Positions 18,355 through 22,502 of a DNA stretch of 64,000 nucleotides are shown one piece after another. Under the pieces are notes generated by a model. The model saw only the letters and a list, made by a program, of their open reading frames with translations. It was not told the DNA's origin and made no database searches. This DNA comes from Methanothermobacter sp. MT-2 (GTDB lineage: Archaea > Methanobacteriota > Methanobacteria > Methanobacteriales > DSM-23052): positions 373,501 to 437,500 of the forward strand of contig AP017647.1 of assembly GCA_003584625.1 (NCBI GenBank), given 5' to 3'. Position 1 is the first letter of the stretch, and the number at the start of each line of letters is the position of its first letter. Made by a program: the position numbers and the translations under genes.

Positions 18355-18431
<77 letters not shown>

Positions 18432-20620: not shown

Positions 20621-20926
20621 ATGTCATTTTGCCTTGAAACTTATCTACAGCAATCAGAAGATTACGAAATCCACATCTCAAGGGCTGGCTTCAAAGAATG
20701 TGCAAAACTGATCAAAGAAAAAGCCCGGGAAACCCTATATGTAAAAGCCGGTGAAAAAATCCTCGGAGCAAGACTAATAGGCATACCCCCAATACCAATA
20801 GGCATCGACAAAGAAAAGAAAACAGTCATGATACCATATACAAAACCTTGTTATGGGACGGCCGTAGTAGAAATACCAGTGAAAAAAGAAGAAATAAAAA
20901 AAATAGAAAAACTTGCAATAAAATAA
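20621..20926 (+). CDS. DUF1894 family protein
   Basis: The 101-residue methanogen protein of DUF1894 (GFKECAKLIKEKA, LIGIPPIPIGIDKEK, PYTKPCYGTAVVEIP) is small and soluble with two conserved cysteines. Role unknown. Its stop (20924-20926) is in the same frame as metE, with eight sense codons between the two genes and no canonical start codon among them. Confidence 0.8.
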   Translation: MSFCLETYLQQSEDYEIHISRAGFKECAKLIKEKARETLYVKAGEKILGARLIGIPPIPIGIDKEKKTVMIPYTKPCYGTAVVEIPVKKEEIKKIEKLAIK

Positions 20927-20950
20927 TCCGGACATGGGGGGTGCAAAAAA

Positions 20951-21886
20951 ATATTAACAACAGTAGTTGGAAGTTACCCGGCCAAACCATCCAAACCAAG
21001 AAACTGGAAAGAAAAACTATCCAAGATAATAGGATCATATGATCCATACCATCATGCCATTGAAACAGCAATCCAAGACCAGGTAAAAGCAGGTATAGAT
21101 ATCATATCAGATGGTCAAGTACGAGGAGACATGATAAGCATCTTCGCGTCAAAAATCCCAGGGATGAAAGTTGAAAATGGCACATCAAAGATAATATCAA
21201 GGATATTACCACCACAGAACCCCATAGGCGCCCAAGACCTCAGATTATCCCAAAAAATCCTTAAAAAACTTGGAAACAGCCGGGAAATTAAGGGTATAAT
21301 CACTGGTCCAAGCACACTCATCTACTCATCAAGGGTTGAAGGCTTCTATGATCCAAAAGACAAGAAAAAAATGACAATAGACATGGCAGAAGCCCTAAAA
21401 AGAGAAGCACTATACCTTGAAGAAGCAGGAGCTTCAATGATACAAATAGACGAACCATTCCTATCCACAGGCATCGTCAACATGAAAACTGCTAAAAAAG
21501 CCATTAAAATCATATCAGATGTTATAAGCGTGCCAGTAGCCCTACACGCATGTGGAGATATAAAAGAAATCTTCGACAACCTTATAAAGTTCAATGTGGA
21601 GATAATAGACTGCGAATTCGCAGGAACACCCAGCAACCTACAAGTCATCAAAGACTCAGAACTAAAAAACAAAAAGATAGGATTCGGATGCATAGACACA
21701 AAAAGCCACAAAATAGAAACCATACAAGAAATAAAAAAACTCATCAGAAAAGGTATCAAAATAATCGGAGAAGATATAATCATAGACCCAGACTGTGGGA
21801 TGAGAAAACTCCCAAGAAACGTGGCATTCTCCAAACTCAAAAACATGGTGGAGGCAGCCAATGCCCTACAAGATAACAGCCAATAA
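20951..21886 (+). CDS. metE: Archaeal MetE-type methionine synthase (core enzyme, non-canonical start)
   Basis: This short archaeal methionine synthase corresponds to the C-terminal catalytic half of MetE. Archaeal members are thought to take the methyl group from a corrinoid donor. Zinc ligands appear in HACGDIKEI and in CIDTK/DPDCGMRKL; QIDEPFLS is also conserved. Family homology runs back to LTTVVGSYP at 20954, yet the frame has no ATG, GTG or TTG before ATG 21131. The codon aligned with Met1 of homologues is ATA 20951, preceded by GGGGGTG at ribosome-site distance. Either AUA initiates, or the A7 run after GTG 20941 is one base too long (A6 would give a GTG start). thyA overlaps its end by 26 bases. 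Confidence 0.85.
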   Translation: MLTTVVGSYPAKPSKPRNWKEKLSKIIGSYDPYHHAIETAIQDQVKAGIDIISDGQVRGDMISIFASKIPGMKVENGTSKIISRILPPQNPIGAQDLRLSQKILKKLGNSREIKGIITGPSTLIYSSRVEGFYDPKDKKKMTIDMAEALKREALYLEEAGASMIQIDEPFLSTGIVNMKTAKKAIKIISDVISVPVALHACGDIKEIFDNLIKFNVEIIDCEFAGTPSNLQVIKDSELKNKKIGFGCIDTKSHKIETIQEIKKLIRKGIKIIGEDIIIDPDCGMRKLPRNVAFSKLKNMVEAANALQDNSQ

Positions 21887-22502
21887 AATCAAAGACGGAT
21901 GGCAAAAACTCGTGAAAAAAATAATGGACGAAGGCAAACTAATAGAAGACGAAAGAGGCTCCAAGACGCGAGAAATCCTCAACACAATAGTAGAAATCAA
22001 AAAACCATTCAAAACCAACTTCTACCAGATAGGAGAAGAAATAGAAGCCCCAGAAGGATACTTCTGGAGTGGGGAGAAACTCAAAGAATACGCAAAACAA
22101 TTCCTCACACCAGACAGACAAGGATTCATTTACACCTACGGGAACAGACTAAGAAGCCACTTCCAAGTCGACCAAGTAGAAGAAGCCATCAAAAGACTTA
22201 AAAAATTCAAAGGAACGCGAAGAGCTACAATGACCACATGGGATCCGAGAATCGACACAAAAGAAGATGAAGTACCCTGCATGATACTCATAGACTTCAA
22301 AATCAGAGATAACATACTCTACACCACAGGAGTTTGGAGATCCCATGACATCTATGGGGCATGGTTCCCAAATGCAGTGGGCCTAGCATACCTTGCCAGA
22401 TATGTTGCAAAAAAGACAGGAGTCCAAACAGGCCCCATAACGATCCATTCTATCAGCGCCCACATCTATGAAGTTAATTTCAATGAAGCCAAAAAAATAT
22501 GA
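21861..22502 (+). CDS. thyA: Thymidylate synthase, archaeal type
   Basis: The 213-residue archaeal thymidylate synthase methylates dUMP, in methanogens presumably with a tetrahydromethanopterin-type one-carbon donor. The nucleophilic cysteine is Cys140 (EVPCMILIDF), followed by the nucleotide-binding RSHDIYGAWFPNAVGL and the C-terminal HSISAHIYE. It is shorter than bacterial ThyA (about 264). Its ATG lies inside the 3' end of metE with GGTGGAGG just upstream, so translation is probably coupled. metE, thyA and mch in a row form a C1-transfer operon. Confidence 0.9.
   Translation: MPYKITANKIKDGWQKLVKKIMDEGKLIEDERGSKTREILNTIVEIKKPFKTNFYQIGEEIEAPEGYFWSGEKLKEYAKQFLTPDRQGFIYTYGNRLRSHFQVDQVEEAIKRLKKFKGTRRATMTTWDPRIDTKEDEVPCMILIDFKIRDNILYTTGVWRSHDIYGAWFPNAVGLAYLARYVAKKTGVQTGPITIHSISAHIYEVNFNEAKKI

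Follow-up and report, generated by a model that had tools for sequence, protein, structure and literature searches.

The window analysed (G000:C1:373501-437500, 64,000 nt, part of a genome consisting of one contig of 1.52 Mb) carries a metE/mesA gene that lacks a canonical start codon at the position where conservation of the protein begins. The features of this locus are listed below (positions within the window).

20621..20926, + strand: gene encoding a DUF1894 protein (101 aa), located 5' of metE (PF08979, E 7.9e-32)
20937..20943, + strand: Shine-Dalgarno (SD) element GGGGGTG, within ATGGGGGGTG, 7 nt 5' of ATA
20944..20950, + strand: non-coding spacer CAAAAAA (the SD-to-ATA gap is not a multiple of three across the genus)
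20951..20953, + strand: proposed metE/mesA start codon ATA (AUA), which is ATA in 4/4 genomes of the genus
20951..21886, + strand: metE/mesA, core (folate-independent) methionine synthase, 311 aa
21131..21133, + strand: ATG (Met61), the first in-frame canonical codon, not regarded as the start; its SD is weak
21861..22502, + strand: archaeal thymidylate synthase gene, the 3' neighbour, overlapping metE (TIGR03283, E 1e-80)

The metE frame is open from the DUF1894 stop codon (TAA, 20924-20926), which lies in the same frame, to position 21886. The coordinates were rechecked, and the statement of the preliminary description that no ATG, GTG or TTG occurs in frame before ATG 21131 (codon 61) proved correct. 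The sole in-frame near-cognate codon (ATA, ATT, ATC or CTG) 5' of the TTVVGSYP motif is ATA 20951, the next one being located at 21026. A GTG triplet (20941-20943) is contained within the SD element, out of frame with metE, and a run of seven A residues (20945-20951) is formed by those of the spacer together with the first A of ATA. No RNA switch was detected 5' of metE: an Rfam scan of the 18-24 kb part of the window identified only a tRNA (18358-18431).

Judged by profile comparisons, the metE product is a MesA core methionine synthase, which has a Meth_synt_2 domain but no N-terminal folate-binding domain. It scored 420 bits against NCBIfam PRK00957, which passes the equivalog cut-off (258), and 225 bits against Pfam PF01717 (Meth_synt_2). 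The latter alignment extends from residue 2, in agreement with the earlier placement of the beginning of MetE homology at ATA 20951. The zinc ligands (His199, Cys201, Glu222 and Cys282) and homocysteine-binding residues (Ser8, Gln56 and Asp167) of this protein agree, with small gaps allowed, with the published positions, those binding homocysteine in MesA of M. thermautotrophicus being 8, 59 and 174 (PMC7857596). PDB searches returned nothing on the start of MetE.

The start region was compared in four genomes of the genus, i.e. G000 (the genome containing the window), G001 (Methanobacteriaceae archaeon 41_258, contig LGEU01000023), G002 and G003. The leaders are given below, with the length of the SD-to-ATA spacer and the distance from the GTG/CTG triplet to ATA.

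G000: GGGGGTG-CAAAAAA-ATA-TTA, spacer 7 nt, GTG/CTG-to-ATA 10 nt
G002: GGGGGTG-CAAATT-ATA-TTA, spacer 6 nt, GTG/CTG-to-ATA 9 nt
G003: GGGGGCTG-CAATT-ATA-TTA, spacer 5 nt, GTG/CTG-to-ATA 8 nt
G001: GGAGGTG-CGGGT-ATA-TTA-TTA, spacer 5 nt, GTG/CTG-to-ATA 8 nt

ATA is thus present in 4/4 genomes, 5-7 nt behind the SD; in G001 it is placed one codon further upstream (ATA TTA TTA ACG). A canonical in-frame start is absent from three of the four (G000, G001 and G003). An in-frame GTG occurs only in G002, where it is located inside the SD, nine bases 5' of ATA (GTG CAA ATT ATA), and ATA is therefore not the sole possible metE start in this genome. Since the GTG/CTG-to-ATA distances differ by steps that are not triplets, and the frame is lost, this interval appears to act as a non-coding spacer. 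The alignment to close relatives, proposed in the preliminary description as a check, thus revealed that ATA is conserved in all three of them and that two also lack a canonical start.

Outside the genus, GTG ATC ACA ACA is aligned at the metE start in 7/8 genomes of the sister genus (Methanothermobacter-type outgroups), and ATG is aligned with the metE ATA in other Methanobacteriales. The start codon is the sole difference between metE described here and these MesA relatives (METE_METTM, PMC7857596), which are alike in enzyme family, residues and length. In the eighth sister-genus outgroup (G010, L021) metE reads GGAGGATAAACTGATCACA, in which CTG is a possible start and both ATG and TTG occur in frame upstream. 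MesA of Methanothermobacter marburgensis was reportedly purified and N-terminally sequenced in 1999; should its gene start with the G010-type CTG, this N-terminus would merit comparison.

The strength of SD elements was scored as the duplex with anti-SD GAUCACCUCCU (assumed, the rRNA region being masked in the genome) and compared with 300 sampled canonical genes of G000. The SD before ATA 20951 reached -12.7 kcal/mol, i.e. it was stronger than those of 96% of the reference genes. Lower values were obtained for ATG 21131 (-5.9 kcal/mol, 34th percentile), for GTG 20941 (-4.3 kcal/mol, 24th percentile) and for the in-frame GTG of the G002 gene (-1.7 kcal/mol, 11th percentile). The SD before ATA of G003 was weaker than that of G000 (-8.4 kcal/mol, 57th percentile). 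The GGRGG core is separated from the metE ATA by 9-10 nt, compared with 6-11 nt (mode 6-10 nt) in canonical genes. The preliminary description was therefore right to call GGGGGTG a strong site, but the distance to ATA is 7 nt and not the eight bases given there.

The same description had offered an alternative, with initiation at GTG 20941 and A6 in place of A7 (GTG CAA AAA ATA TTA), in which one base would have been added either by an error of sequencing or by a recent insertion. G002, with GTG CAA ATT ATA TTA in frame, has the arrangement that A6 would create in G000, and an occasional indel or mutation is possible, given that G000 pfkB (519738) also lacks an ATG that is present in G002. However, an error of this kind predicts a canonical in-frame start in close relatives, which was found in one of three; in the other two (G001 and G003) such a start is missing and the GTG/CTG triplet lies 8 nt from ATA. 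Furthermore, GTG 20941 sits within the SD and its own SD is weak. The G000 assembly is also frame-true at long homopolymers, with 938 runs of at least 7 nt that cause no loss of frame in the 1.07 Mb aligned for 1233 genes whose coding signature is clear, and contains few split genes (about 20/1225 relative to G002, against 28/1233 in the reverse comparison). With two relatives also devoid of a canonical start and with differing spacings, the proposed A6 correction is not supported, and initiation at GTG 20941 is improbable.

A standard gene finder would call ATG 21131, the first canonical in-frame codon, to give a 251-aa product, and Met61 is indeed conserved in 4/4 genomes of the genus. Besides having a weak SD, this start would remove Ser8 and Gln56, two of the three homocysteine-binding residues (PMC7857596), together with 60 codons that are under purifying selection. 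Codons 2-61 of G000 compared with the other genus genomes display dN of 0.10-0.12 and dS of 0.56-0.64, as in the rest of the gene, and the N-terminal 60 codons of G000 and G002 differ at 9/5/19 sites in the three codon positions, which bears out the earlier view that ATG 21131 is placed 60 codons inside conserved sequence; the truncated product is scarcely credible. Entry of ribosomes from upstream, by read-through of the DUF1894 stop or by a frameshift from GTG or DUF1894, might be suspected from the frame that this stop shares with metE in G000 and from the A7 run, a possible slippery site. The DUF1894 gene of G001 is, however, in another frame, the upstream frames vary among the four genomes and a strong SD lies between the two genes, so that this route is highly improbable. 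Equally hard to accept as the truncated product is decay of metE to a pseudogene in the genus: the loss of the canonical start would fit, but in four species the frames are intact (311-312 aa), dN/dS is low and the catalytic residues are all present, and in each genus genome this gene is the only MetE-like match.

We consider it probable (roughly 0.85), on the basis of sequence comparisons, that translation of metE/mesA starts at AUA 20951 by true near-cognate initiation with Met-tRNAi, helped by the strong SD, and that this device is common to about ten genes of the genus. AUA initiation, the leading proposal of the preliminary description, gains support from the conserved ATA, the strong SD and the missing canonical start in G001 and G003. 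According to this model, GGGGGTG would set AUA in the P site at a normal distance, and the initiator Met-tRNA (anticodon CAU) would pair with AUA despite the third-position mismatch, the SD stabilising the complex. As Met-tRNAi would decode AUA, residue 1 is predicted to be Met, followed by L-T-T-V-V-G-S-Y-P. On non-AUG mRNA, initiation complexes are made less stable by archaeal aIF1 (PMC6237735), and genes with near-cognate starts should therefore be weakly translated and aIF1-sensitive; reduced or regulated expression would be a likely consequence.

The components of the initiation machinery appear to be ordinary. The CAU initiator tRNA gene (1213960-1214036, - strand) encodes an anticodon stem with the three customary G-C pairs (GGG/CCC), which rules out an altered initiator tRNA, and aIF1 is present in all genomes, which rules out its absence as an explanation. 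These findings point to SD strength, and not to changed machinery, as the probable basis of the tolerance. Reassignment of AUA to Met was also ruled out, in view of a tRNA-Ile-like CAU gene and of the use of ATA, which is the principal codon for Ile and is conserved as such.

We also searched for other genes in which protein conservation extends far upstream of the first canonical start, by comparing stop-to-stop frames of the whole of G000 with about 87% of G002. The survey revealed ten candidates with a metE-like architecture and the near-cognate codons ATA, ATT, ATC or CTG (G000 coordinates).

ATA 394451, + strand: metE
CTG 977817, - strand: hemA, glutamyl-tRNA reductase (gene 976642-977817, loci L185-L188)
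CTG 86054, - strand: cbiG (CbiG profile, 2 to 2; strong SD, same codon in G002)
ATC 1042143, + strand: AmmeMemoRadiSam-like radical SAM gene (strong SD, same codon in G002)
ATC 508816, - strand: LutB-like gene (strong SD, same codon in G002)
ATT 1466655, - strand: F420-oxidoreductase/DUF1932-like gene (F420_oxidored profile, 2 to 1; strong SD, same codon in G002)
ATA 1163453 (or neighbouring CTA/ATT), - strand: RNA ligase (gene 1162200-1163456)
CTG 123089, + strand: DUF1512 gene (strong SD, same codon in G002)
ATT 1372041, + strand: pseudomurein-binding transglutaminase (strong SD, same codon in G002)
ATC 1403000, - strand: IGHMBP2-type helicase (weak, ambiguous candidate)

Protein profiles begin at residue 1-2 when the near-cognate codon is taken as the start (TIGR00273, 1-378 to 1-378), and the other candidates also have their GGRGG core at a distance from the start that is within the canonical range. 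The near-cognate codon is identical in G000 and G002 in 10/10 cases, for which the chance probability is 8e-5, as calculated from the conservation of internal codons (ATA 79%, ATC 51%, ATT 46%, CTG 17%). Among genes with a strong SD core upstream of the first canonical start and conserved coding sequence behind it, but with no canonical codon at a suitable distance, 9/13 were found to have a near-cognate codon (18% expected, P 8e-5); as candidates were picked for missing starts, this figure depends on the selection, and the 10/10 identity is less affected. The same device (AUA, AUU, AUC or CUG) has probably been maintained by selection since before the species split.

The start regions of metE and hemA were compared across the four genus genomes and those of most other candidates between G000 and G002. 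The clearest case of the set is hemA, whose leader is GGGGGTATYY-TAR-CTG in 4/4 genomes. Its preceding stop abuts CTG in each of them, so no upstream start is possible, and about 58 codons of the gene precede the next canonical start. Outside the genus, hemA starts with GTG, ATG or TTG.

Several loci were not accepted as proven near-cognate starts on account of their ambiguity: a polyferredoxin gene (1495671), a PLP-dependent enzyme (547072, + strand), a pfkB-family kinase (519738, + strand) and the IGHMBP2 helicase (1403000). The pfkB and PLP genes have a strong SD, with AAA and TTA, respectively, where G002 has ATG/TTG, which could reflect mutation in the G000 lineage, sequence error or start codons that are weaker still. 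A conserved gene at 239257 (+ strand) begins with ATC directly after TAG; in G002 this triplet is CAG and the gene extends further upstream. An obvious SD was not observed, and a AAATATAATATT box is located just upstream. This may represent a leaderless non-canonical start or a nonsense mutation. The RNA ligase (Rnl3 type) has an N-terminal extension of ~50 residues resembling a zinc ribbon, which the M. thermautotrophicus-type enzyme (PDB 5d1o) lacks. A stop codon immediately precedes this gene in 4/4 genomes, and the choice of starts in G000 is limited to CTA/ATA/ATT. In G003 the ATC-start AmmeMemoRadiSam-like radical SAM gene (G003:C2:125684-126697) seems to be broken by several stops.

Gene finders that accept only ATG, GTG or TTG cut 7 to 88 residues from such proteins (among them those of hemA, metE and an RNA ligase), and public protein sets for the genus are therefore probably wrong at these points. 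The near-cognate set provides a test bed for the tolerance of archaeal initiation (aIF1, SD strength) towards mismatched start codons, and also bears on whether the output of biosynthetic enzymes is held down at this step. Going further, one might tentatively suppose, with rather more doubt than confidence, that the genus has relaxed its start-codon choice, so that about 1% of genes (including the essential hemA, cbiG of cobalamin biosynthesis and metE of methionine biosynthesis) are kept by selection on AUA/AUU/AUC/CUG starts and form a regulon, the output of which depends on aIF1 and SD strength at initiation.

Near-cognate starts are considered vanishingly rare in prokaryotes (PMC5622118, PMC11497404). 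Among 61,358, two reconstructed switches from AUG to CUG and one from AUG to AUU were recorded, i.e. about 2-3 per 100,000 (PMC5622118), and CUG accounts for 0.024% of bacterial starts (PMC11497404). The codons are the same as ours, but those switches are isolated, whereas the starts described here would make up roughly 0.8% of 1233 genes and are kept between species. Ten cases among about 1233 genes greatly exceed the survey rates, although surveys based on annotation undercount such starts. A text search of the open-access literature found no report of an archaeal AUA start, nor was an archaeal near-cognate start described in the papers covered.

E. coli infC starts with AUU. In common with metE, it has an AUN codon with a third-position mismatch and, as predicted for metE, is sensitive to a fidelity factor. 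In contrast, infC encodes the fidelity factor itself, IF3, which autoregulates the gene (PMC13009471), while the genes described here are metabolic, with no feedback loop shown.

The closest parallel is found in S. aureus, in which infC, ccpN and citZ have AUA starts with extended SDs; the ccpN and citZ sites, when tested, gave about 10-30% of AUG output, and the AUA start of ccpN is common to Staphylococcus aureus and Bacillus subtilis (PMC13009471). These genes share with metE an extended or strong SD before AUA, conservation between species (ccpN) and a start that is probably weak, in a gene with a metabolic or regulatory function. They differ in that the S. aureus starts are bacterial (fMet, IF3) and were demonstrated by ribosome profiling with retapamulin and by reporters, whereas the starts described here are archaeal (Met-tRNAi, aIF1/aIF2) and proposed from sequence. 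Moreover, three AUA genes are involved in S. aureus, compared with about ten genes and four codon types in the genus studied here.
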